Shown here: positions 1,303-24,613 of the stretch, piece after piece | Position numbering within the stretch: position 1 is the stretch's first letter | Layout of the letters: the number at the start of each line of letters is the position of its first letter | IMG/VR virus record: IMGVR_UViG_3300009414_000071 | Coordinates: 1-24,613 of that record | Source: a virus | Length of the DNA stretch: 24,613 nt | Direction: 5' to 3' (one strand) | The notes under the pieces: model-generated | The model's input: only the letters and a program-made list of their open reading frames with translations | Database searches by the model: none | What the model was told of the DNA's origin: nothing | Translations under genes and position numbers: made by a program

Positions 1303-2376
1303 ATGTATTTTAATTACATACCAAACACAGAATTCAATTTCAGTTGGAGTGAAACTGCTGGTACTAGCGGCGGTTTTATTTCTTCAGTAAACATGAAAGA
1401 CATATTCAAACGAGTTTCGTTTACGCAAAAAACCAAAGACGATGCGGGTTCATTTGAATCTTATGTTGTCTCAGAAGGACAAAAACCAGAAGATGTCGCC
1501 TTTGATTTTTATGGAGATCATGATTTATGGTGGGTTGTGTTATTATCAAATAATATTGTTGATCCGCATGGCGAATGGTTGAAGTCTGGTGGTGAAATAA
1601 CCTCCATGTTTAATACTTTCCTTAGTGGTAATAGTTATTTTGTGTTTGAGAATTTAGATGCATTAGAAGGTGATATTTTAATCCGACGAGATGTTGGTCT
1701 TGATGGGTCTATTGATTTAAACAACTATGGAGAAGTTGATAATTATGATAAACTTCTTCATAAAATAGACGTTAAGAAATCCAAGGGTACAATTAATGAA
1801 AATGACGAGATCTATCTGTTTAGAAAAAGCATAATTGCTGGCGAAGAACAATGGAACTCCATAGATGGGTTTGGTGTTACTGGTTGTTATCAACAACATT
1901 TTGGGGCTACATCTTGTATTGGTTTTACTGGTCCTGAATATGCAGGATCAATGGGTGTAGGATCTGGCCAGGCGGCCGTCGCGTGGGGTCCGCCTTGCCC
2001 GACAGCCGGATCTACGTTTTCAATTGTACGAAGAAAAGAAACCATTTCAAAATCGGCTCACCATTTTGCATATAATAATGATATGGTAAATCCATATAGT
2101 GCATATCCAGTATTAGGTCATGATGGACCTTCGGGAGATTTCTATAGTCAGCAAAATGTTTGTGGAATGACTGGAACAATACTGTATAAATATATGATTA
2201 AGAGTCTATCAGAACAGATTAAAACAATTACTACGCAAGATGATATAATTTTTAAAAATGACGAAAAGCGAACGATAAAATTGGTTGCAAAAAATCTAGT
2301 ACCGGCTTTAATAGACGAATTTAAAATATTGATACAGGGTAATGTTCCAAGAGGAACTACTCATATCATTGAATAA
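1303..2376 (+). CDS. gp53: Baseplate wedge protein, T4 gp53-like, with long C-terminal extension
   Basis: Residues 53-96 carry the gp53 signature: 'YVVSEGQKPEDVAFDFYGDH' followed by 'LWWVVLLSNNIVDPHGEW'. In T4, gp53 joins neighbouring wedges around the hub. T4 gp53 is about 196 residues; this one is 357, and the excess lies C-terminal to the recognisable domain. The extension holds a Gly/Cys-rich insert (about residues 190-237) with motifs such as 'GCYQQHFGATSC' and 'GFTGPEYAG'. Part of it, near 1961-2013, is clearly more GC-rich than the rest of the gene. The last 80 residues return to a charged, ordinary composition. The gene lies 11 bp after the tube-cap gene and 20 bp before the hub candidate. 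The family call is strong; the role of the extension is unknown. Confidence 0.85.
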   Translation: MYFNYIPNTEFNFSWSETAGTSGGFISSVNMKDIFKRVSFTQKTKDDAGSFESYVVSEGQKPEDVAFDFYGDHDLWWVVLLSNNIVDPHGEWLKSGGEITSMFNTFLSGNSYFVFENLDALEGDILIRRDVGLDGSIDLNNYGEVDNYDKLLHKIDVKKSKGTINENDEIYLFRKSIIAGEEQWNSIDGFGVTGCYQQHFGATSCIGFTGPEYAGSMGVGSGQAAVAWGPPCPTAGSTFSIVRRKETISKSAHHFAYNNDMVNPYSAYPVLGHDGPSGDFYSQQNVCGMTGTILYKYMIKSLSEQIKTITTQDDIIFKNDEKRTIKLVAKNLVPALIDEFKILIQGNVPRGTTHIIE

Positions 2377-2396
2377 TTATAATAAAGTGACACATC

Positions 2397-4565
2397 ATGG
2401 TAAAATTTGAACGACAATACCCATCTGATATTATTATAGAAAGTATAAAAATCAAAAGACTGGGGAGTGACCAGGAATATGTTGTAAAGTCATTAAATCC
2501 AAAAAATGACGATGAAGCAGCCACTAGTGATTCGTTTACGAGTATGAGCATTAGTGAAAGCATTTTTGGTTCGGGGGTTAGTGGAATTCTAAAGTTCCGT
2601 GAACCTTCTGCTGGTAACAGCATGATTGGTGATTATTTCAATTTTGTTGGTGGTGAATTGGTTGAGATTGTCATTGAATCACCGGAACCCATTGAAAATT
2701 CAAGAAAAGAATTGACATTTTGCGTCAATGATGTTCAAAAACTGGGCAATGAAGCATCAGAGGCATTAGTTGGTGCAGTAGTAAAGGCAGATGCTGGATG
2801 GCTGGTGAGTTTTATATCATGTGAGAATTTCTACTTGAATTGGGCAGAACTTGATATTGCAAAGCATGAAGATTATATTGGTCATATTGCTTCTGATAGT
2901 AGTTTTGATGAAGAACCAGGACTGGTCAATCAAGTAGCAGAAAAATATTTTAATCCCGGTGCTACAGATTATAGTTTTGCTCAAAATGATATGGAAATTG
3001 AAAACACACACAATAGCGTATGGATCAAAACAAATCAACACATGTATCCATGGGCAAAAGATGTTCATTATTCGAGTTTAATGTCAACTATGACAGATCT
3101 TGCTGAAAATGCTGTCACAGAAGATCAGAAGGGTGTAAATTATCTTTTCTATGCAGATTTGGATGGGTGGCATTTTAAATCAATTCGGAAAATGCTAACT
3201 GATGAAGGTGGTTCATACTTTTTTGGATTGTTGGGTCAAGATCCCAGAGAATATTTTTTCACAGACATAACCATTTCTCCCGAGGATTGGAATTTTGGTG
3301 ATCCTAGAGTTTTAGCAATGAACATTTTAAACGAATATAATCATTTACAGTTGTGGTATGATGGAGCATATTCTTCATATTATGAACTTGTCAAACCAAA
3401 TTATAATGATCCCTATTTCAATTATTTGAATTTTGCATCTACACATAGCACAGAACATATAACATATGATTATCATCAAGACCCGTGGGGTGGTGTGGAA
3501 GATGGGGGGCGAGTAGCAGAACATAAATTGCTTCCGGACAGTATAGATACGTCACCGAAAATACACACCCGAAGGTTCTATGACGAAAATGGATTGTATG
3601 GTTATTTTAGTAATCCATATAATGCTCCTCAATATAATTTGATTGATACAATGGGTTCTATGGACACGAATGGAAAATATGGACCAACAAACGGTGGTGC
3701 TAATTGGAGAACAATGTTCGATCAAACCGATCTTTCTGGTGAGATTCTTTATAAAATACAAAAAGAAATTAAGAAACCCATGCGCGAATCAGGTGCATTT
3801 GGAAGATATATTAAAATGGTCGATGTAAAAGAACGTTGGGAAATATATAAGAATTCTATTTGCTGTGTGGGTGAAGAAACACAGTCTGCGGAGAAGTTTG
3901 CATTTCTTGCAATCATAGACGGTGCAAAAAAGATATCAGGCGATGATGGTCGGGGTGGAATATATGAATACAGTTGGAGAGAAGTAGAATTTTGGCCAAG
4001 GGATCGTTTATTAGAAGAAGAAATGGGTGATGTAATAGAAATAAGTGATGAAAATTCACCACTTAGCATCATTATGACTCCTGGTGGTCTTCAGGGAACA
4101 TTTTTAGACGAAGCAAGCGACGAATGGACAAATCCAGCATATAACATTAGTGAATTGTTGAATACAACTCAAGGAGATGATGTGCTTGTTGGTCCGGGCA
4201 TTAATGCTGCAAGCAGATTGGAGCCAGCAGGAGGTGGAACGGAAGGATCTATAATAATAAACAATTATCCAGAAGCATTCCAAATGATGCCGGTGGGTAG
4301 TTATTTCATAACAGGGGATGAACCCTGCGAAACCAGAGAAAATGATGATGTTGATTTTTACTTTCACGGTCAAATTGTGCAGATGTATAAACTAACAAAT
4401 TATGCACTGCAACATATCGCTCCTGATGTGTTGAATTATGAAGAGGATGATGACCGAGAAGCAAACGAAATTGCCAATGAGGTATATTTCTTTAATGTTC
4501 CAAATGCGCACGATGGAATGTGTCGTTGTGATACTCCTGTTGGTGCTACAGGTGGTGGACCATGA
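2397..4565 (+). CDS. Large baseplate hub candidate (gp27-like N-terminal region)
   Basis: This 722-residue protein opens with 'SMSISESIFGSGVSGILKF' (about residues 50-68), then 'FVGGELVEIVIESP' (about 83-96), and later 'GVNYLFYADLDGWHFKSI' (about 246-263). I associate this pattern with hub proteins of gp27 type in marine T4-like phages, whose tube-like domains form the trimeric centre of the baseplate. T4 gp27 is about 391 residues, so this is nearly twice as long. The C-terminal half is acidic and ends in 'CRCDTPVGATGGGP'. No lysozyme domain is visible. The start has no clear Shine-Dalgarno, but no other in-frame start after the upstream stop is better. The protein at 5509-6303 may supply a hub C-terminal domain. 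The structural role is likely; the exact gp27 equivalence is tentative. Confidence 0.5.
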   Translation: MVKFERQYPSDIIIESIKIKRLGSDQEYVVKSLNPKNDDEAATSDSFTSMSISESIFGSGVSGILKFREPSAGNSMIGDYFNFVGGELVEIVIESPEPIENSRKELTFCVNDVQKLGNEASEALVGAVVKADAGWLVSFISCENFYLNWAELDIAKHEDYIGHIASDSSFDEEPGLVNQVAEKYFNPGATDYSFAQNDMEIENTHNSVWIKTNQHMYPWAKDVHYSSLMSTMTDLAENAVTEDQKGVNYLFYADLDGWHFKSIRKMLTDEGGSYFFGLLGQDPREYFFTDITISPEDWNFGDPRVLAMNILNEYNHLQLWYDGAYSSYYELVKPNYNDPYFNYLNFASTHSTEHITYDYHQDPWGGVEDGGRVAEHKLLPDSIDTSPKIHTRRFYDENGLYGYFSNPYNAPQYNLIDTMGSMDTNGKYGPTNGGANWRTMFDQTDLSGEILYKIQKEIKKPMRESGAFGRYIKMVDVKERWEIYKNSICCVGEETQSAEKFAFLAIIDGAKKISGDDGRGGIYEYSWREVEFWPRDRLLEEEMGDVIEISDENSPLSIIMTPGGLQGTFLDEASDEWTNPAYNISELLNTTQGDDVLVGPGINAASRLEPAGGGTEGSIIINNYPEAFQMMPVGSYFITGDEPCETRENDDVDFYFHGQIVQMYKLTNYALQHIAPDVLNYEEDDDREANEIANEVYFFNVPNAHDGMCRCDTPVGATGGGP

Positions 4566-4584
4566 TACTGTTGGTTGAATTGTT

Positions 4585-5469
4585 ATGAATATGCATAGAA
4601 GTTGTTGTTGTTCCATAGAAGAACCGGAACCGGATGAACCAGATTTGTGGGAATTTATAAATGCAGCGGTTGTTCAACTATCATTAGACTATAGCGGATC
4701 GATGGGGGGCGAAGAGGACACCATACAGGAGTGGGTTGCATATTTTATTAATAGAATGAATGAAAAGTTTGGAGAATTGCCCGAAGATGAAAAGCCAATG
4801 GTTGGTGCAGATATATGGAGTGACGGAACTCCTGTCCTGATATCGCAGGAACCAACATATGACTATGATTCTATACTTACTTTTGTGTTGGGCGGATACA
4901 CGTTGGCGGGGGGTGGCACCAGATACAAGCCATCCATGGAGGAACACATGGCCATTTTTAACGAATATTCTGTGGTGGGAGAACTGGAAGAGGGCTACTG
5001 TTGCGAACCCCCATTGGAAGAGGGCACATGTTGCTTTGCCCTGCTGCCCCCGGAAAATAACGGACTATGTGACGATCCCGATGATGTCGTAGTTAATTGT
5101 GTTTGCGATAATGTAGATAGTGAACAAGATTGTACAGATAATTACCCGGGGCGTGATTTTCAGTCTGATATTGACGTTGTTGAAGGAGTTGCTGTTATGT
5201 TTTTGAGTGACGGTTTGGCAGGTGATCAAATCTGGGTACGCAATGCGGTGGATTCCTCGGGGTATATTAAAAGTGCATATTATACTGTTGGATTTGATAT
5301 TGGTGCGGCAGGTGAAGAACTTTTAGAGTATATGTCATCAGGGACTAACGGGCATTATTTCCCAGCAAGTGATCTAGATACATTGAACTTAATTATTGAC
5401 ACTTTATTACAAGGTGATGATGATGGTGATGATGATGGTGATGATGATGATGGTGGTGGTTCTGGATAA
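4585..5469 (+). CDS. von Willebrand factor A (vWA) domain protein with complete MIDAS and Cys-rich insert
   Basis: The 294-residue product has a vWA fold signature with all metal-ion-dependent adhesion site (MIDAS) elements. These are D35-Y-S37-G-S39 in 'LDYSGSMGG', T112 in 'GGGTRY', and D209 in 'VMFLSDG'. vWA domains bind protein or sugar ligands through a divalent metal. Between the second and third elements sits an insert (about 132-192) with Cys at 139, 140, 149, 150, 162, 172, 174 and 183. The N terminus has a CCC triplet (7-9). The C terminus is a run of Asp with single Gly, encoded by a 12-bp repeat, then GGGSG. No signal peptide or membrane segment is seen. It lies between two hub-type genes, so a baseplate-associated adhesive role is plausible but inferred. 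No Shine-Dalgarno precedes the ATG, and an in-frame TGA at 4576-4578 rules out an earlier start; ATG at 4591 is the alternative. Confidence 0.85.
   Translation: MNMHRSCCCSIEEPEPDEPDLWEFINAAVVQLSLDYSGSMGGEEDTIQEWVAYFINRMNEKFGELPEDEKPMVGADIWSDGTPVLISQEPTYDYDSILTFVLGGYTLAGGGTRYKPSMEEHMAIFNEYSVVGELEEGYCCEPPLEEGTCCFALLPPENNGLCDDPDDVVVNCVCDNVDSEQDCTDNYPGRDFQSDIDVVEGVAVMFLSDGLAGDQIWVRNAVDSSGYIKSAYYTVGFDIGAAGEELLEYMSSGTNGHYFPASDLDTLNLIIDTLLQGDDDGDDDGDDDDGGGSG
5413..5466 (+). repeat. In-frame GGTGATGATGAT tandem repeat encoding an acidic C-terminal tail
   Basis: Three close copies of GGTGATGATGAT, the third with an extra GAT, end in GGT triplets. They encode a Gly-Asp tail on the vWA protein just before its stop. 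Because the units are multiples of three bases, slippage would change tail length without breaking the frame. Confidence 0.85.
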
Positions 5470-5481
5470 ATTAGTATTAGT

Positions 5482-5489
5482 CCTAAATA
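5482..5489 (+). promoter_or_regulatory. Weak late-promoter-like site (CCTAAATA)
   Basis: CCTAAATA matches TATAAATA at 6 of 8 positions. It lies in the 39-bp gap between the vWA gene and the ATG at 5509, upstream of an AAAGGAG ribosome site. Position is suitable, but the match is weak and could be chance. Confidence 0.25.
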
Positions 5490-5508
5490 AAATAGAAAGG
5501 AGCAACTT

Positions 5509-6303
5509 ATGGCTAATGGAGAATACAAAAGACCGACGCCAAAATACCTTATAACAATGGCAAAGGCTGCCAGGGATTTGAACTGGCACCAGGCACAAGG
5601 TATAGTTCCTACAACAACAATAAACCATTCATTGTTTGCATTTGTGGAGGATCGCGGTTGTGTAGGTGGGATGGTTGATAATTCGGAATGTCCCGATGAT
5701 GATCCACTTTGCGAATGCCCCTGCCTAAATTTAAAACCAGACAATTTATTAGGCTCAGTAGCAGGGGCTGAACCCACAGATGATGAATTATTCGAAGCAT
5801 TTAAAGAAACCAAAGAATGCAATCTGATACACGAAGTACTGGGGGAAAGTTACCTTGGTTGTTTTTGGGATTCACCCGACCATCCCTCCAGTTGCGGCTG
5901 TCCTTGTGTTGGTGAAGATTTTAAAAAATATGTTGAATATAACCAAACAGATGCAACATACTGGAATACACCGAAGACCACTCCACTATGGCGAAATGCT
6001 CAAATGACGCTCATGAGTTCCCAAAAAATGAGAATTATATTGAATGGGGATTTGACATTGCGCCCTGGTAAACCCATTACAATTGTAAACAAAACTCCCG
6101 GATCTGATAAAAACGATAGAATGCAAAGATTTACTGGGAGGTGGTTGGTGACGGATATTGAGCATATGATCACATCAACAAGTCATAAAATGGATGTGAT
6201 ACTTAGTAGAGATAGCACAGGAACAGATCCCAATGAATCTGAAAAACTTGGGGTATTTGAATCATTATCCAATTTGCTTGGTTCTTTGTTTGGGTTTGGG
6301 TGA
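5509..6303 (+). CDS. Baseplate protein with hub-type C-terminal domain and Cys-rich N-terminal half
   Basis: The 264-residue product starts after a strong AAAGGAG site. Residues about 170-225 contain 'LNGDLTLRPGKPITIV', 'RFTGRWLVTDIEHMI' and 'MDVILSRDST'. This GD..L.PG / F.G.W.V..I.H / L.RDS pattern is one I associate with the C-terminal part of phage hub and tail-tip proteins. The first half is different: it carries Cys at 51, 61, 68, 70, 72, 104, 118, 129, 131 and 133, including 'CECPC' and 'CGCPC' clusters that look suited to metal binding or cross-links. The C terminus is a short Gly/Leu/Phe-rich tail. With the 722-residue protein it may form one hub whose parts are encoded on either side of the vWA gene. 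The structural role is likely; the split-hub idea is inference. Confidence 0.55.
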   Translation: MANGEYKRPTPKYLITMAKAARDLNWHQAQGIVPTTTINHSLFAFVEDRGCVGGMVDNSECPDDDPLCECPCLNLKPDNLLGSVAGAEPTDDELFEAFKETKECNLIHEVLGESYLGCFWDSPDHPSSCGCPCVGEDFKKYVEYNQTDATYWNTPKTTPLWRNAQMTLMSSQKMRIILNGDLTLRPGKPITIVNKTPGSDKNDRMQRFTGRWLVTDIEHMITSTSHKMDVILSRDSTGTDPNESEKLGVFESLSNLLGSLFGFG

Positions 6304-6329
6304 TTGTTTATTTGATTTTACTATACATA

Positions 6330-6336
6330 TATAAAC
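6330..6336 (+). promoter_or_regulatory. Weak late-promoter-like site (TATAAAC)
   Basis: TATAAAC lies in the 48-bp gap before the gp25 gene and 15 bp upstream of its ATG at 6352, with AAGGA just after it. It matches the first six bases of TATAAATA. The short distance to the ribosome site leaves little room for a transcript leader, so this is only a candidate. Confidence 0.2.
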
Positions 6337-6351
6337 CAAGGAAAACATTCA

Positions 6352-6753
6352 ATGCCAGTAAACCAATATTCAGATTTTGATATCAATTTTAACAGAAATG
6401 AATATATTAATGACGTTTCTGTGATGAAAGACCGACACGCCATAAGACAATCAATTATGAATATTGTATTAACAAGACCTGGTGAAAAACCATTTAAACC
6501 TTCGTTTGGCGTAGGCATTCATGATTATTTGTTTGAAAATTGGACTCCTATGAATGCCTCCTTTTTAGAAAGAGATATAGTATGGGCTGTGCGTGCATGG
6601 GAACCGCGCGCAGAAGTAGAATCAATTATTATAGATGAAGATAATATTGATAGTAATGAGGTATCAATAGAAATAAGATTTGTTATTCTCGGTGGATCAC
6701 TATCCAATCCAATAATAGAAAGCATACAATTAGCACTAACAAAGGTTAGATAA
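6352..6753 (+). CDS. gp25: Baseplate wedge protein gp25
   Basis: This 133-residue protein matches the gp25 family in length (T4 gp25 is about 132) and sequence. 'SIMNIVLTRPGEKPFKPSFG' (34-53) and 'GIHDYLFE' (55-62) are family landmarks. 'WEPRAEVESI' (83-92) contains the EPR motif at 84-86 that is conserved across contractile injection systems (gp25/TssE/Afp). The protein is part of the inner wedge core with gp6 and gp53, at the sheath-baseplate contact. It starts after an AAGGA site and is followed after only 2 bp by the gp6-like gene, so the two are almost certainly co-translated. It has no Cys-rich addition, unlike most of its neighbours. Confidence 0.94.
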   Translation: MPVNQYSDFDINFNRNEYINDVSVMKDRHAIRQSIMNIVLTRPGEKPFKPSFGVGIHDYLFENWTPMNASFLERDIVWAVRAWEPRAEVESIIIDEDNIDSNEVSIEIRFVILGGSLSNPIIESIQLALTKVR

Positions 6754-6755
6754 CA

Positions 6756-8534
6756 ATGGCAAAAAGTAACGTAGACATTCAACTTGGATCTTTAGACTTT
6801 GATGGTATTAAAAATAGCATCATTGATCATTTAAAAAAACAAAACACTCTGAAAGATTATGATTATGAAGGATCTGCAATGCAAGTTCTTCTTGATGTTT
6901 TGGCATATAATACTTCATATTATGGGTTCTATTCTAATATGTTAGCAAGTGAAATGTTTTTAGATACTGCTCAAAAAGAATCTTCTTTGATTTCTCTTGT
7001 TAAACCATTAGGTTATCTTGTGCCCGGTGCAAAGTCTGCCAGAGCATTAGTAAAAATTCGTCAGGGTGGTACAAATGGAACAGTGCCTCGCTATACTAGG
7101 TTTAGTGGGACAAGCAGCAGTGGTATTTCTTATAATTTTTATACAATTGAAGAATATGGATTAGATCTTAACGGGGAGGCTGTGATTTCAATTGTGCAGG
7201 GGAAATCTCTAACAAAAGAACAACCCATATTAATAGATTCAGCAACACAAAAGGGATTTATTTTAGGATTGGATGTTGATATTAGTACTATAAGATTAGA
7301 AGTTTTAGATTATAATGGAGATGGTACATGGGTAGAGTGGGCAAGGGCAGGCAACATTGAACAAGGATTGGATGATACGAGTCAAGTATATTGGTTAGAA
7401 AGAAGTGATATGGGTTTCTTTGTTATATTTGGTGGAAACTTAGAAAATAGTGCATATGTTCAAGTTGGTAGAAGTTTAAAATCAAATGATTTGGTAAGGT
7501 TGAGTTATTTAAAAAGTGAAGGAGAAAGAGGAAATCAACTTGGAAATTTCAGCGTGAATGGTTTTTCTGCAACGACTGAAACTGTTTCATTATCTTCTGG
7601 GGGATCTAATGGACCAGATTTAGAATCTATTAGATTTTTTGCCCCAAAGTGGTTTGCCGCACAAGACAGAGCAGTGACGGTAGAAGATTGCAGAGCATTG
7701 CTCGCTGCGAAAGGTTTTGTTAGCGATTCTAGTAACCCATATTCCAATTTTAATGTATGGGGCGGTGAAGAAATGAATCCACCAAGATATGGTAGGTTGT
7801 TTGTTTCTTTGGGAGACACTACGGAAGAAAATCCGGTTGCTGCAACAAAAGCAATTGATATATTAGAGCAAAAAACGTGTGTGACTGTGTTACCGGAATT
7901 TATGGACGTTGATAGGTTTTATGTTGAGGTTTATGGGAAAATATATTATGAACCGTTAGAAACATCACTAGATGAAAATACTCTGTTATCAATGGTAGTG
8001 AAAAACATTTTTGATAATAATCCGAATGGTTTTCGGCAAACCTATGATAGTGGTGTTATTTCTAATAACATCAATTCTCTAAATGCTGCATTTTATGTTG
8101 GTTCAAATGATATTAAGTTTAAAGTGTCCAATAACGTTCAAGTGTTTTCCCAAACACCGCGAAGCCTAATAAAATTTAGAAACGAATGTGAATCAGGAAG
8201 TTTAATTACAACAGAGTTTATGCCAGGATCAGCATTTGGGGGGTTGGACGATGACCAAAAGATATATCTAAAATCTTATGGTAATGTTAGTAACGGTAAG
8301 CAAAGCATTATTGCTGCGTATTTTGACGAAGAGATAGAAATAAGTCTAGGCTCGGTCGGTCATTTTATTCCAAACACTGGCGATGTTGTGTTCATAAAAC
8401 CGATGATTGCTGCGGAAGATTTTAGTTTGAGTGTAGACATAACAAGTACGGGTACTAATACTTTTATTAATAAAGAAGAAATGTATGCTATCACAAGAAC
8501 CAATCTTGAAATTGTAAAAAGAAACTTAGGATAA
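6756..8534 (+). CDS. gp6: Baseplate wedge protein, T4 gp6-like
   Basis: The 592-residue product shows the gp6/baseplate J-like opening: 'YDYEGSAMQVLLDVLAYNTS' (about 35-54), then 'FYSNMLASEMFLDTAQKESS' and 'LVKPLGYLVPGAKSARA'. In T4, gp6 dimers link the six wedges into the ring around the hub. T4 gp6 is about 660 residues, so this is full-size. Near residues 300-315 'FAPKWFAAQDRAVTVEDCRA' matches the conserved middle of the family. Its gene follows gp25 by 2 bp. Its TAA stop overlaps the next gene's ATG by one base (TAATG), which indicates translational coupling. Composition is regular, without Cys-rich inserts. Confidence 0.92.
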   Translation: MAKSNVDIQLGSLDFDGIKNSIIDHLKKQNTLKDYDYEGSAMQVLLDVLAYNTSYYGFYSNMLASEMFLDTAQKESSLISLVKPLGYLVPGAKSARALVKIRQGGTNGTVPRYTRFSGTSSSGISYNFYTIEEYGLDLNGEAVISIVQGKSLTKEQPILIDSATQKGFILGLDVDISTIRLEVLDYNGDGTWVEWARAGNIEQGLDDTSQVYWLERSDMGFFVIFGGNLENSAYVQVGRSLKSNDLVRLSYLKSEGERGNQLGNFSVNGFSATTETVSLSSGGSNGPDLESIRFFAPKWFAAQDRAVTVEDCRALLAAKGFVSDSSNPYSNFNVWGGEEMNPPRYGRLFVSLGDTTEENPVAATKAIDILEQKTCVTVLPEFMDVDRFYVEVYGKIYYEPLETSLDENTLLSMVVKNIFDNNPNGFRQTYDSGVISNNINSLNAAFYVGSNDIKFKVSNNVQVFSQTPRSLIKFRNECESGSLITTEFMPGSAFGGLDDDQKIYLKSYGNVSNGKQSIIAAYFDEEIEISLGSVGHFIPNTGDVVFIKPMIAAEDFSLSVDITSTGTNTFINKEEMYAITRTNLEIVKRNLG

Positions 8535-19712: not shown

Positions 19713-22700
19713 ATGATAAGAACATACGGATCAAGCAGAATAGAAGATATCACTGGTTCGCTTGGCTTCGCCGGGCCCAGCGGTCCTATCGGAGCCATTG
19801 GAGCCACCGGGGCTACCGGAGCCACTGGACATACTGGCCCTGCTGGACCAATAGGAAGTGGCATATCAAATATTTCTTTGTTTGGTGAAAGTTATGCGAT
19901 AGAGGGATCTAATCCTCCTGCTGATGGTGATGGTGGTGTTAGTGATAAATTTGGTAAGTACGGAATAAGGGAAGCGGGTGATTATAAAATTTTCGGTGAT
20001 CCGAGACACAATACGGGTGGTGGTAGAGTACGGGTATACAAAAAAGGAAACACTGCCGGATGTACAGCCGGTTCTAATTGGTATAATGAAATAGATCTAT
20101 CACCCATCGGCGTTGGTGATGGTTGGGCAACGGGTCGAAATACAGATATTACTATTTTTGATAACGGGGATGTTGTGGTTGTCGCTGGTGCAGAAGGGGC
20201 AGAAGTCGGCGGCAATGCAACCGGTGCTGTATATGTGTGGAAAAGAGATTATTCTACAGAAGTGTGGACACAGGTACAAGAAATAGGGGCCCCTGGTGTT
20301 CAATCCACCTGGAGAAAAGTAGGACGGGGTGCATGTTTAGTTGATGCTAAAACAAACTCTCTTTTCTTTTCAAAAGCACCGGGGCAGGGCAGCGACACGC
20401 AATCAGCATTCATTTGGCATTTTACCACATCCGATAGCGGAGATACTTGGACTGAAAATACAACATGGACTGCTAAGACACTGGATGAAATAAGAGGATG
20501 GACCTCCTCAACAGATGATGGGGGCATTAGTGGGTTCAGTGATAGTCAAATTACTGAAGACAGAATGATACTGGCAGCACACGCCGATGATGCGTATATG
20601 GGTGGCATTACAATATATGAATATACAGATAGTACATGGCAAAGGGTGTTTTATAAAAAAGGAATATGCGAGTCGGGGTCGCCCTGCGAGCCCGGACCCT
20701 ACAAGCCTTCTCTTGGTTTAGATTCTGCGATTCATAAAGATATTGCTGTTGCTGGTTCGCCAAATAGTATAAATGGTCATTTGATCCCACGGAAGGGGAT
20801 CAACTATCCTCCGGGACATGAAAACTTAAAGGTGGGGGAGAATGCAAATTATGGTGCTTATAATGGATCTGTTTTTGTTTATAGGAGAAATAGTGATGGA
20901 AACTGGACACATAGTCAATTAATAGATAATCCATTTCCAGAAGCGGGTGCAAATTTTGGACATGGTGTTGATCTGTGGAAAAACATTCTTGTTATTGGTG
21001 CGTGTGGTGCCGGAAACCATAACAATGCTACTGACGGCTCACCTGGCAGAGTGTATATCTATAAAGATGAAAGTCAAGCCGGGGGGCCATCGAAGTTCGT
21101 ATTAAAAGATATTATATATCCATCTAAGAATTATGTGTGGGTCGATGAGGGTGGGATTGCTGGCGATAGTGTTACAGGTATTGGATGGGGAATAAAGATA
21201 TCCTACAGGGGAGGGGATATTGCGGTTGGCGCGCCGTCTGGATTTACTGGGGGTGCCCCCACGGTCGGTTCTGCCTTTATATTATCTGAAGATTATTTAA
21301 ATATTACTATTTCTGATGTCAGAGATGAGTCTGATTATGATACAGAGTGGTGGGGTAGAAAATTAGAATATTCAATTGGTGTTAGTGGTGCAAAAGGACC
21401 AACGGGGACTGATTATAATTATGAATATACAATCACGAATGCTGGCGAAAATGTGGGGGCTGTACCAAGTCAAGAGAGTCTTAACTATGGTAAAATTTAT
21501 AAAACCAGAGAGGGTGCAACTGCATATTTTAGAACCTTAACTGTTAGTGGTAATGCTATATCAATAAATTCTACAAACGATTATACTATTCTTCTTGCCG
21601 GAAATGAATATATTAGTTCAGGTGGCATTATTGGTAATACTGGCGAGTTGGTTTATTCTTTTAGTGGAGCATCTGCTCAAGGTGTTAAGAATACACATTG
21701 GGACGGTACTAGATTGGTTGCAAGACTAGAAAATTACCGAGAAACTATATCCAATAATAATTATAATGTTCTTGTTGCACCAGAAGGCCCCAATCCAATA
21801 AACACAACCGAAAATGTTAATTCTGGATTTTTAGACGGATCTATTATTCCCTTTTCCTACATTGTAACGCAACCGAGTCTGCCAGGCACATCAACGATAA
21901 TTAAGAGTGTTAAGAGTGGGTTGCATATGGGAACGACTAGTGATAACGAAGGACTCAGTGCTGATATAATTCATACATTTGGTGACACGATATTTGCGAC
22001 TCCTTATGTTCCCCCAACTAGGATCGGTTCTTGTTGTTATTGTAAAATGGTTAGCAGTGATCCAGATTTTCCTGAAAGAGAGGGAACTATTCCCGATTGC
22101 TTAGATTTTACAACTGATATTTATTGCGATTCTATTGGTGGCAGTTTCAACACTATTCCATGCGCAAATAGACCAGAAGGACCGGGTTGCTATAAGGGTA
22201 GTGCTTGTTGTGTAGGTGGTAGTTGCATAAATACAAACTCTGAGAAATGTACATTGTTTGGTGGTTTTTATATTGATAATACTGATTGTGAAGAAGTAGA
22301 ATATGAACTTGGTGGGTGTCCAGCAACATGTGAAGATCATGGTGCATGTTGTGTTGGTAACTTATGTTATGATTTGACTGAGGTAGAATGTTCATTTGAA
22401 CCAAATAGTACATGGTCCGCAGGTAAAACATGTAAAACATACAATTGTTGTTTTGCTCAACTTGGCGGTTGTTGTGTTGACGAGATGTGTTATGAAACGT
22501 CACCATATATTTGCAGTACATTATTTTCGGTTGATGGAACTCCTGGTGTATTTTGGGGGACTGGCTCTAGTTGCGCCGGACCAAAAAGAAACACTGAAGC
22601 ATATGCACCTTATGAATGTTTGATGGATGATGGAATAATAAGCGAACCATTAGATGAAGATGGATTGTGTCCTGACGGTGAATTGCCTCCGTGTAGGGCG

Positions 22701-24613
22701 CAATGTCCGGGTTGGCAGCGACTGGGGGAGCAGTTCCCTTGTTATGATGGAGAAGGCAACGAGGTCAGCATATGTGCATGCGACGGGGCAGATTGTGGTG
22801 AATGTGAGATTGGAGTTTGTTCTACGGGTGAAACACAATCATCAGGAACTATGATATTGGCAGATAATACTTGTTGGGAATGTTGTTGCGAGGGTGCAGT
22901 ACCGGAAAGACCAGTATTATTTGGTGCATGTTGTGTTGATGATGACCCGGATTATCCTGAACCATACTGTGATGAAACAAACATGTTAGATTGTGCCATG
23001 AAGGGTGGCATGTTCATGGAAGGGTTAGAATGCAGTGATGAAACTTGTAATTTCGGAGCATGCTGCGACAAATACCGAGGAACTTGCCGAGATGAGACTT
23101 ATAAGATGGACTGTATGGGAGTGAATGAAAAGTGGTATGGAATATGTGATGGGGTGGCATGTACTTGTGATGATATAATCTATTCTGTTAACACTTGGTA
23201 TGAAACAGGCGGGGTTAATGATTTACTTGATTTGATTTCTCGTTTGGGTGAGTGTGGACCTGATTGTGATTGTAATGAAGATGGTGTAGTTGACTCAGAT
23301 GATGTGTGGTGCTTGTTTGCGTGGGGCTGGGATCCTGGAGATGATCCACATCGTTTTAACTTTAGATCTAGAATATTAGATCCTCGTATTGATCCTACTG
23401 ATTCTCCTAGCAACACATTTGATTGGAATTTTATGCAATGGCATTGGTGGCCAGGTCATACACATCGCTTTGGTACATATGGTCAAACTGAGGTTGGTGA
23501 GTTTCCACCTGGTTCATACGGTGAAGATACAATAATACATGATTTGTGGGATGCAGATTTCTGGGCGAGTCAGGGACCGCCTTCGATTATATGGAGTAAT
23601 TTTGAAGGATTTTATACATGTGAGGTTCGATTGTCGTGGACGAAGATATTAAATTGCCAAATTTGTGATTACACAGGGTCCGGCGGAGGAGGAAGTCCTT
23701 ATGATCGTATGTGTAAAGATTGTCGTATTGATAACAATTATTTTAAATTCCACAATAATTCAGCAGTGCCATGGCTGAAAATTGGTGCCGTTGATTATTA
23801 TTGCACTACTTGTGCAAAACGTGGTAGGTGTTGTATGGGACCAACTTACGGTGGAGAATATGATTTCATGGCTCACTTAAATGAAAATCAAAGTCCAGAG
23901 GCGGTGGGAGCATTCCTGGATGATCTAGATTTAAAACTATACAACGATGATGATGTAGTAATAGATGAAAGGCCCGTATATTCAGATTGTTACATGACGC
24001 ATGCTGTGTGTGACGCACACATGGGACATTTTGAACCCGTTGATACTGTTGCATATGGTGTTGATGCGCCAAGGATGGATCTGGTCCCACCGGCGGCAGG
24101 TTATGGTTGTTGTGGAAAGAGTTGTCAACAGGTTCCGGTGCCGATGAGTGACGACGATTCAGAGTGGATGGAGATTAGGAATTATGATCCACTATATCCA
24201 GAGCAATGTGAATTAGATAAAATTGTGTGTTGTACAAAGAGGCTGGGTCTAATAGAAACAGATACTTGGGAAGAGTGTTTAAATGCCGATTTTGCGCTTA
24301 GTGGGAAATTGGGAGTTCCCTTATCACCAAGATTTAAAACAATAGATGAAGTACCTGATTCTATTAAAGACAATTTGGGTTGTGGAGACACTGGATGGGG
24401 TGCTTGTTGTGGATGTGCTGTACAAGATGGGGTGTACTATCATGATTGTGTGATGACAAAAGATATTATGGTGTGTTTAGATATGGGTGGCCACTGGGCT
24501 GGTACAGATACAATGTGCATAGACCAACCTTTGTGCGATGGTATACCTGCTGGTGGCACAAAATATGGATGGACTTGTGAAGATTGCAGTGATAATATAA
24601 CTTGCCCCGGTGA
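19713..24613 (+). CDS. Giant tail appendage protein: collagen stalk, FG-GAP-like propeller, Cys-rich modules, dockerin-like loop (3' end cut by window edge)
   Basis: From the ATG at 19713, after a TTGGAG site, the frame stays open for 1633 codons to the window end; I read it through and found no stop. Residues 15-50 are Gly-X-Y collagen repeats. About 120-520 carry several FG-GAP-type blades, for example 'TGAVYVWKRD', 'NGSVFVYRRNSDGNW', 'FGHGVDLWKNILVIGA' and 'GDIAVGAPSG'; such blades form beta-propellers in surface proteins. About 520-770 is an unrecognised beta-rich region. From 772 on there are about ten Cys modules, with C-C pairs near 774, 832, 879, 920, 1073, 1117, 1373, 1466 and 1565. 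Residues 1186-1197 form a calcium loop of dockerin type. It is probably an adhesive appendage, one of the largest proteins of the phage. Confidence 0.85.
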   Translation, partial: MIRTYGSSRIEDITGSLGFAGPSGPIGAIGATGATGATGHTGPAGPIGSGISNISLFGESYAIEGSNPPADGDGGVSDKFGKYGIREAGDYKIFGDPRHNTGGGRVRVYKKGNTAGCTAGSNWYNEIDLSPIGVGDGWATGRNTDITIFDNGDVVVVAGAEGAEVGGNATGAVYVWKRDYSTEVWTQVQEIGAPGVQSTWRKVGRGACLVDAKTNSLFFSKAPGQGSDTQSAFIWHFTTSDSGDTWTENTTWTAKTLDEIRGWTSSTDDGGISGFSDSQITEDRMILAAHADDAYMGGITIYEYTDSTWQRVFYKKGICESGSPCEPGPYKPSLGLDSAIHKDIAVAGSPNSINGHLIPRKGINYPPGHENLKVGENANYGAYNGSVFVYRRNSDGNWTHSQLIDNPFPEAGANFGHGVDLWKNILVIGACGAGNHNNATDGSPGRVYIYKDESQAGGPSKFVLKDIIYPSKNYVWVDEGGIAGDSVTGIGWGIKISYRGGDIAVGAPSGFTGGAPTVGSAFILSEDYLNITISDVRDESDYDTEWWGRKLEYSIGVSGAKGPTGTDYNYEYTITNAGENVGAVPSQESLNYGKIYKTREGATAYFRTLTVSGNAISINSTNDYTILLAGNEYISSGGIIGNTGELVYSFSGASAQGVKNTHWDGTRLVARLENYRETISNNNYNVLVAPEGPNPINTTENVNSGFLDGSIIPFSYIVTQPSLPGTSTIIKSVKSGLHMGTTSDNEGLSADIIHTFGDTIFATPYVPPTRIGSCCYCKMVSSDPDFPEREGTIPDCLDFTTDIYCDSIGGSFNTIPCANRPEGPGCYKGSACCVGGSCINTNSEKCTLFGGFYIDNTDCEEVEYELGGCPATCEDHGACCVGNLCYDLTEVECSFEPNSTWSAGKTCKTYNCCFAQLGGCCVDEMCYETSPYICSTLFSVDGTPGVFWGTGSSCAGPKRNTEAYAPYECLMDDGIISEPLDEDGLCPDGELPPCRAQCPGWQRLGEQFPCYDGEGNEVSICACDGADCGECEIGVCSTGETQSSGTMILADNTCWECCCEGAVPERPVLFGACCVDDDPDYPEPYCDETNMLDCAMKGGMFMEGLECSDETCNFGACCDKYRGTCRDETYKMDCMGVNEKWYGICDGVACTCDDIIYSVNTWYETGGVNDLLDLISRLGECGPDCDCNEDGVVDSDDVWCLFAWGWDPGDDPHRFNFRSRILDPRIDPTDSPSNTFDWNFMQWHWWPGHTHRFGTYGQTEVGEFPPGSYGEDTIIHDLWDADFWASQGPPSIIWSNFEGFYTCEVRLSWTKILNCQICDYTGSGGGGSPYDRMCKDCRIDNNYFKFHNNSAVPWLKIGAVDYYCTTCAKRGRCCMGPTYGGEYDFMAHLNENQSPEAVGAFLDDLDLKLYNDDDVVIDERPVYSDCYMTHAVCDAHMGHFEPVDTVAYGVDAPRMDLVPPAAGYGCCGKSCQQVPVPMSDDDSEWMEIRNYDPLYPEQCELDKIVCCTKRLGLIETDTWEECLNADFALSGKLGVPLSPRFKTIDEVPDSIKDNLGCGDTGWGACCGCAVQDGVYYHDCVMTKDIMVCLDMGGHWAGTDTMCIDQPLCDGIPAGGTKYGWTCEDCSDNITCPG
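19755..19856 (+). repeat. Collagen-like Gly-X-Y repeat
   Basis: Twelve Gly-X-Y triplets (residues 15-50 of the giant protein) with Ala-Thr, Pro-Ile and Pro-Ala fillings. They have no break and are preceded by a short N-terminal peptide like that of the preceding collagen-stalk protein. Confidence 0.9.
20070..21275 (+). other. FG-GAP-like beta-propeller region
   Basis: This part encodes about residues 120-520 of the giant protein. Repeating pieces of form G-(A/S)-V-(Y/F)-V-(W/Y)-x-R...W and (I/V)-x-V-x-G-A fit the FG-GAP_2 type of blade. The spacing is irregular, and I count four or more candidate blades by eye. Confidence 0.65.
22026..24455 (+). repeat. Array of diverged Cys-rich 'GACC' modules
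   Basis: Module starts recognisable by a C-C pair after Gly: 22026, 22197, 22341, 22467, 22923, 23055, 23823, 24105 and 24399. Several include 'GACCV(D/G)..C', then a C-x-(I/L/M)-x-G-G stretch, and a closing Cys pair. They are closer to the modules of the preceding gene than to any other part of the window. Confidence 0.8.
23268..23303 (+). other. Dockerin-type calcium-binding loop
   Basis: It encodes 'DCNEDGVVDSDD' (residues 1186-1197). Ligand positions 1, 3, 5, 9 and 12 are D, N, D, D, D with Gly at 6 and Val at 7-8, which fits the EF-hand-like dockerin loop. It is followed by 'WCLFAWGWD', like the 'LL..WG' helix of dockerin repeats. Just before it, 'GGVNDLLDLISRLG' could be a second helix without its loop. 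Confidence 0.65.

Follow-up and report, generated by a model that had tools for sequence, protein, structure and literature searches.

Viral genes encoding vWA domains have been described in several settings. The closest earlier case that we found is gp164 of Bacillus phage 0305phi8-36, which excerpts from one paper (PMC2147016) describe as a baseplate/fibre gene whose vWA domain is swapped in relatives and whose region is proposed as a host-recognition determinant. Excerpts from other papers report viral vWA genes linked to CobT or AAA genes (PMC8651126, PMC7911831), list vWA among the domains of extracellular injection-system loci (PMC8213781), or list viral vWA genes with no tail role named in those excerpts (PMC9960720, PMC8504454). 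In a further excerpt a VWA protein is represented by one spectrum from purified virions, a low count of the kind that may reflect contamination (PMC10892097), and the tail of phage Milano is described, again in part of a paper, as held by disulfides (PMC10811340).

The other term of the comparison is the baseplate hub. In the cultured phages that we examined, the phrog_350 hub is encoded by a single gene: phiM12 gp113 (416 aa), S-B64 gp129 (473 aa), Melnitz gp116 (483 aa) and AS-zj gp356 (412 aa). The hub gene follows gp48 and gp53 in phiM12, Melnitz and AS-zj and lies immediately before gp5 in phiM12 and AS-zj, while the annotation of S-B64 has it in a different place. In HTVC008M one frame matches the hub throughout, with one in-frame TGA reported. 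The phiM12 record carries its own note of an HHpred match of the hub to T4 gp27. An hhalign comparison with one T4 gp27 sequence gave P 0.44, a value that reflects a single sequence; a T4 gp27 query matched only T4 among six records, and no solved gp27 was among the matches of the hub profiles to the PDB. A search of six records for the gp5 OB-fold tail lysozyme gave no match, and its control was likewise unmatched. In the open-licence papers searched, neither a gp27-like hub split around another gene nor the Cys-Cys-Cys tag described below was reported.

The stretch that we analysed (the window, 24,613 nucleotides) comes from an uncultured marine T4-like phage and has the gene order gp48-gp53-hub ... 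gp25-gp6, as do phiM12 and AS-zj; Melnitz shares gp48-gp53-hub. The features of the hub region located below (1303-8534) all lie on the plus strand. Baseplate wedge genes like gp53 (1303-2376; Pfam Phage_gp53, E 8.5e-13), gp25 (6352-6753; Pfam GPW_gp25, E 2.1e-16) and gp6 (6756-8534; phrog_219, E 1.9e-81) surround two genes that match consecutive parts of the phrog_350 profile. The first, 2397-4565, encodes 722 aa and covers profile positions 14-101 and 173-277; the second, 5509-6303, encodes 264 aa and covers positions 349-435. The profile was matched in order across both genes, the positions being those obtained from a 55-kb record of the same virus. When a profile of four intact hubs was used instead, the first gene aligned to residues 23-316 of the phiM12 hub (P 4e-8) and the second to residues 343-415 (P 5e-10). 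As judged from these alignments, the two genes together make up one gp27-like hub, the first encoding its N-terminal part (hub N) and the second its C-terminal part (hub C).

The window hub differs from the single-gene hubs of phiM12, S-B64, Melnitz and AS-zj in being split in two, in having a Cys-rich expansion at the break and in having another gene between the parts. Hub N has the ending NAHDG-x-C-x-C (4503-4529), and hub C carries a Cys cluster from C51 to C133 (5659-5907) in which C51, C61, C68, C70, C104, C118, C129 and C131 were invariant in 11 sequences. The initial annotation had placed the intervening vWA gene between two hub-type genes. The location was right, but the two neighbours turn out to be parts of one protein, and the position is sharper than first claimed because the vWA gene sits where this gp27-like hub is broken in two. 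We refer to this position as the slot.

The slot gene of the window (4585-5469) encodes a protein of 294 aa. The MIDAS residues that had been read from the sequence are all present, namely D35-x-S37-x-S39 (4687-4701), T112 (4918-4920) and D209 (5209-5211), and all five are identical in the sole diverged relative that we found, a protein 57% identical by BLAST (L006/L016). The Cys-rich insert noted at about residues 132-192 (4978-5160) is also real. It lies between helix 3 and strand 4 of the vWA core in a predicted model, on what would be, from vWA topology, the face opposite the MIDAS, and the relative keeps five of its eight Cys and eight of the 11 in the whole protein. The first nine residues, which include a Cys-Cys-Cys (CCC) tag at residues 7-9 (4603-4611), are unchanged in the relative. 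The acidic Gly/Asp tail at residues 277-294 (5413-5466) is present as described but not conserved, being missing from L006.

No curated profile recognized the protein. Its best Pfam match was CobT_C, at E 0.043 and 13.9 bits against a cut-off of 21, and it had no match in PHROGs or NCBIfam; a diverged family member can fall under a profile cut-off. Searching solved structures by sequence gave only weak matches to unrelated proteins. The AlphaFold model, made from two sequences, was weak (pLDDT 41.8, pTM 0.41), so the fold assignment rests on structural match lists rather than on the model. The order of strands and helices in the model is, we take it, that of a vWA domain. Among the 50 Foldseek matches listed, 49 were vWA or I-domain entries, judged by title or by the known make-up of the protein, and the other was 5zjp; the best E among the matches listed was 2e-3, with none at 1e-3. 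VIA-align, which was a second look at Foldseek's own matches, gave a top match with Z 12.4 and rmsd 3.1 over 153 aligned residues, and all 50 matches listed were of vWA type, again by title or by the known make-up of the complexes concerned (TFIIH, Integrator, proteasome Rpn10 and ArnAB). The nearest folds among the matches listed were TFIIH p34/p44-type, Integrator INTS13/14, CMG2/TEM8 and the pilus proteins PilB and Mfa5. Structure prediction of the protein alone, a check proposed at the outset, thus gave a vWA-type fold through both lists, and we regard that predicted fold as established at superfamily level. The protein shares with the vWA/integrin I-domain superfamily the same strand and helix order and a DxSxS-T-D MIDAS; it differs in its lack of a significant profile match, the Cys-rich segment that separates helix 3 from strand 4, its CCC tag and its place in a phage hub cluster.

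When viral contigs were scanned four times, using the vWA protein entire or in parts, the scans between them gave the same six IMG/VR contigs. Five are identical to the window over their overlap, three containing all 294 residues and two ending inside the gene; the sixth holds the 57% identical relative. A tblastn search of 50,697 phage records found no relative of the protein, and pattern scans of bacterial and archaeal genome contigs found neither the vWA protein nor hub C.

We then looked at how the hub is arranged in relatives. A scan with hub C gave 242 relatives, the best 80 of which were kept and added to those found earlier. In all, 95 loci were labelled, nine of them by hand from gene lists, and these represent 58 distinct hub C sequences. 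The hub is fused in 19 of the 58, split into overlapping genes in 12 (one classed by its likeness to a tree neighbour) and split with a slot gene in 26; one is unclassed. Complete fused hubs are unusually large, measuring 1,457-2,016 aa (L063, L064, L076-L078, L080, L083, L084, L090, L091, L097, L098, L104, L107, L112, L113 and L140). In the three fused proteins that we read, the point matching the break falls within a Cys-containing stretch. Hub N ends near HDG-x-C-x-C in most slot forms, L066 and L085 being the exceptions, and in the overlapping-split hubs this ending is varied or absent. The 26 slot genes comprise 17 of a GATase-like/Cys-rich family, assigned by profile match, five others, two vWA genes and two unassigned. 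A vWA gene between hub genes, proposed at the outset as something to look for in related phages, occurs in only two of 58 distinct hubs; conservation lies instead in the slot and its CCC tag. Three further contigs, found by scanning with the hub C parts of the clade that carries vWA and labelled after the tree was made, had no vWA gene: in one the contig ends within a slot gene, another has a fused hub and the third a probably fused hub that is cut. In some loci the slot gene and hub C are separated by an extra gene, which encodes about 158 aa with a single Cys (L067:8413-8889, L068 and L075:8392-8865).

The CCC tag marks slot genes closely. We counted distinct plus-strand ORFs of at least 150 aa in the window and loci L013-L115, leaving out slot genes that start off the contig. 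CCC occurred within the first 18 aa of 22 of the 539, and all 22 were slot genes, the window protein and 21 others. Among complete distinct slot proteins, 22 of 23 carry the tag, L085 being without it. What follows the tag differs widely: the bodies are for the most part unrelated and span 262 to 2,745 aa. For the commonest body, a model of residues 1-449 of the L023 protein (15 sequences; pLDDT 66.6, pTM 0.76) matched GH42/GH164 enzymes, IFT52 and STM3548/STM1381 with a best E of 4e-4. These proteins have a GATase1-like domain in common. With TM-scores of 0.26 or less by query length, the match is one to a partial domain only. Several slot proteins have Cys-rich stretches and Pro- or Thr-rich runs after this body. 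Large Cys-rich slot proteins, several of them GATase1-like, occur at L023, L026, L027, L028, L036, L043, L049, L050, L052, L054, L055, L058, L062, L066 and L067; in the seven large ones scanned, one of them cut, Pfam found no family above its cut-off.

A vWA-like stretch lies in another slot protein, at residues 276-524 of L081 (hhalign P 1.2e-5, probability 81%). When the vWA profile was searched against 2,023 distinct frames, this stretch was its top non-self match (E 0.002, the next being 0.72). Its MIDAS is lost, so metal binding is not needed in every slot protein. The string DVSGS in L041 also led us to ask whether the second domain shared by the L041, L081, L092 and L101 slot proteins is related to vWA; hhalign gave no support (P 0.07 or worse), and we dropped the idea.

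The contents of the slot are exchanged among close relatives. The hub parts of L016, which has the vWA gene, and L041, which has another body, are 76.6% (hub N) and 67.8% (hub C) identical over aligned parts, and their slot proteins had no BLAST match at E 1. On the hub tree L016 and L041 are sisters (99/89); the two plus the window, which carries a long-branch flag, make up a starred clade (100/98). The slot gene of L041, by contrast, matches the slot genes of L101, L081 and L092 (E 2e-13, 5e-13 and 9e-10), which belong to a separate clade. This recalls gp164 of 0305phi8-36 as described in the excerpts cited above, where a vWA domain is likewise exchanged for other domains in relatives. The likeness is one of description: in those excerpts vWA is the central domain of one gene in another phage group, whereas in the window it forms a separate, tagged gene that divides the hub gene in two.

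Comparison of the window with L006/L016 suggests when the vWA gene moved. The proportion of synonymous sites changed (pS) was 0.28 in the vWA gene, against 0.64 in gp48, 0.68 in gp53, 0.58 in hub N, 0.70 in hub C and 0.58 in gp25, while the nonsynonymous proportion (pN) was similar throughout (0.24 in the vWA gene, against 0.34, 0.22, 0.24, 0.28 and 0.19 in the same five genes). Fourfold sites gave the same picture, with 12 of 57 changed in the vWA gene, 71 of 135 in hub N and 36 of 55 in hub C (vWA against the hub parts together, 107/190, Fisher P 2e-6). The ratio dN/dS was 0.83 for vWA, 0.25 for hub N and 0.17 for hub C, where dS is near saturation. Because pS is less than half that of the five neighbouring genes with pN similar, the vWA gene seems to have passed between the lineages after their hubs parted, and its protein seems to have changed fast, as read from this one sequence pair. 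Synonymous constraint on the vWA gene may be an alternative cause of the low pS. Nor is the slot the only place where pS is low: codons of about 162-261 of hub N (2397-4565) also have low values against L016 (0.29-0.42); this stretch is perhaps another exchanged block or perhaps itself under synonymous constraint. The first 50-70 residues of hub C (5509-5718), just downstream of the slot, differ strongly from L016 (pN 0.47-0.58), and this is a possible exchange junction.

Change within the vWA protein was uneven. No MIDAS residue of the five had changed, against 24 of 37 residues in loops on the MIDAS face, 36 of 103 in secondary structure, 14 of 44 in opposite-face loops without the insert and 30 of 61 in the insert. 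MIDAS-face loops changed more than the rest of the domain (24/37 against 80/208, Fisher P 0.004), with loop borders set by hand from the low-confidence model. Since only two distinct vWA sequences were found, a single pair underlies both the selection values and the loop counts.

We consider it somewhat probable that the vWA protein is an exchangeable, hub-docked module of the tail tip that mediates metal-dependent binding, probably to the host surface. Starting from the computed features of the protein and its gene (fold, MIDAS, slot, tag and exchange), we infer where in the virion it would sit, how it would dock and what kind of ligand it would take. In the proposed mechanism, the CCC tag, the Cys pair at the end of hub N and the Cys cluster of hub C would together dock the module on the hub, through a metal site or disulfides. 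The vWA body would then be displayed at the tail tip, where a Mg- or Ca-loaded MIDAS could bind an acidic group carried by some molecule of the host surface, and exchange of the module would change what the tail tip binds. The initial annotation had left open a baseplate adhesin or an assembly factor. Of the two, the adhesin is favoured because the slot is exchanged, most relatives have large Cys-rich proteins in it, dN/dS is raised and change is concentrated around a fixed MIDAS. An assembly factor is the less likely of the two, and partnership with a MoxR/CobS-type ATPase in particular is unlikely for reasons given below.

More tentatively, and with rather less confidence, we suggest a plug-and-socket arrangement in which the hub break is a cassette site and the CCC plug completes a Cys cluster shared by the two hub halves. 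If so, unrelated bodies (vWA, GATase-like with Cys-rich fibres, and others) would be swapped with the hub left untouched. Receptor recognition in T4-like phages is usually assigned to the distal tail fibres; with a module site in the hub, marine T4-like phages would have a second point at which to alter binding, and the searchable three-residue tag would point to a likely role for dozens of proteins that lack annotation. The proposal makes it testable how well a hub tolerates splitting and whether a three-Cys tag suffices to dock a foreign body.

The strongest rival is that the protein is a structural component of the hub, its vWA domain and MIDAS clipping the hub halves and the spike together inside the baseplate with no host contact. 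The position of the gene at the hub break point and the Cys features in all three products would suit such a clip, and vWA domains often mediate protein-protein contacts according to an excerpt (PMC7911831). We nevertheless think it unlikely: slot bodies that are unrelated and range from 262 to 2,745 aa suit a displayed module better, the 19 fused and 12 overlapping-split hubs of the 58 manage with no slot protein at all, and rapid change at the MIDAS face also speaks against it.

It is decidedly improbable that the protein is not part of the virion but serves in assembly or remodelling, as the vWA adaptor of a MoxR/CobS-type AAA+ ATPase while the tail is built. Such a role would fit the statement, in excerpts from two papers (PMC7911831, PMC8651126), that viral vWA proteins often accompany AAA+ ATPases, as well as the weak Pfam match to CobT_C, and the 55-kb record of the same virus does hold a CobS-like AAA+ gene, which matched TIGR01650 at E 7.9e-19 with a score well short of the cut-off set for that model. 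That gene, however, has its own divergent CobT-like partner with a vWA MIDAS motif, about 31 kb from the vWA gene, and AAA_5 genes also occur where the hub has no vWA, in one record with another slot type (G003) and one with a fused hub (G004). This separate pair, together with the AAA_5 gene in a fused-hub record, makes a MoxR/CobS-type partnership unlikely for the slot protein. The slot gene shares a MIDAS with CobT/MoxR-associated viral vWA proteins but is not beside an AAA+ gene, and a Pfam scan of 12 window proteins found no AAA family. The AAA+ search matched three of six records, the other three of which may be fragments. The CobS-like gene lies at L116:2449-3672 on the minus strand (record G001) and the partner, a 750-aa CobT-like/peptidase gene, at 4067-6319 on the plus strand; the partner matched phrog_459, 'peptidase', at E 1.2e-177, Pfam listed nothing for it, and we call it CobT-like by layout and motif.

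That the gene is a moron or selfish element that landed by chance between hub genes and has no tail role is very improbable, for although it is gene-sized, exchanged and different in G+C (43.1%, against 37.3% and 40.9% in the two hub parts), 26 of the 58 distinct hubs have a gene in the slot, and chance insertions would not carry the common tag of 22 of 23 complete slot proteins. Searches for T4-type late promoter boxes and sigma-70 promoters showed no excess over shuffles.

Fibre genes of the window and a related phage drew our attention as well. We considered an integrin-collagen pairing between the vWA protein and the collagen-like fibres of the window and set it aside: integrin-binding collagen motifs contain an acidic residue, and the Gly-x-y stretches at the starts of two ORFs have none. 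A giant partial ORF at 19713-24611 has collagen-like repeats, many Cys-pair repeats, a weak match to a tail-fibre PHROG and a possible FG-GAP repeat, an integrin-alpha-like propeller repeat (E 0.0094, below cut-off). A collagen-like, Cys-rich protein of fibre type in a related phage (2,615 aa; L118:1301-9148, minus strand, record G006) contains a vWA stretch that is MIDAS-like. That stretch matched VWA_2 at E 2.4e-5, below cut-off, and a Pfam scan of the whole protein at E 0.01 listed Collagen only; its presence there, as judged from sequence, fits the idea that vWA serves as an adhesive unit in this group of phages.
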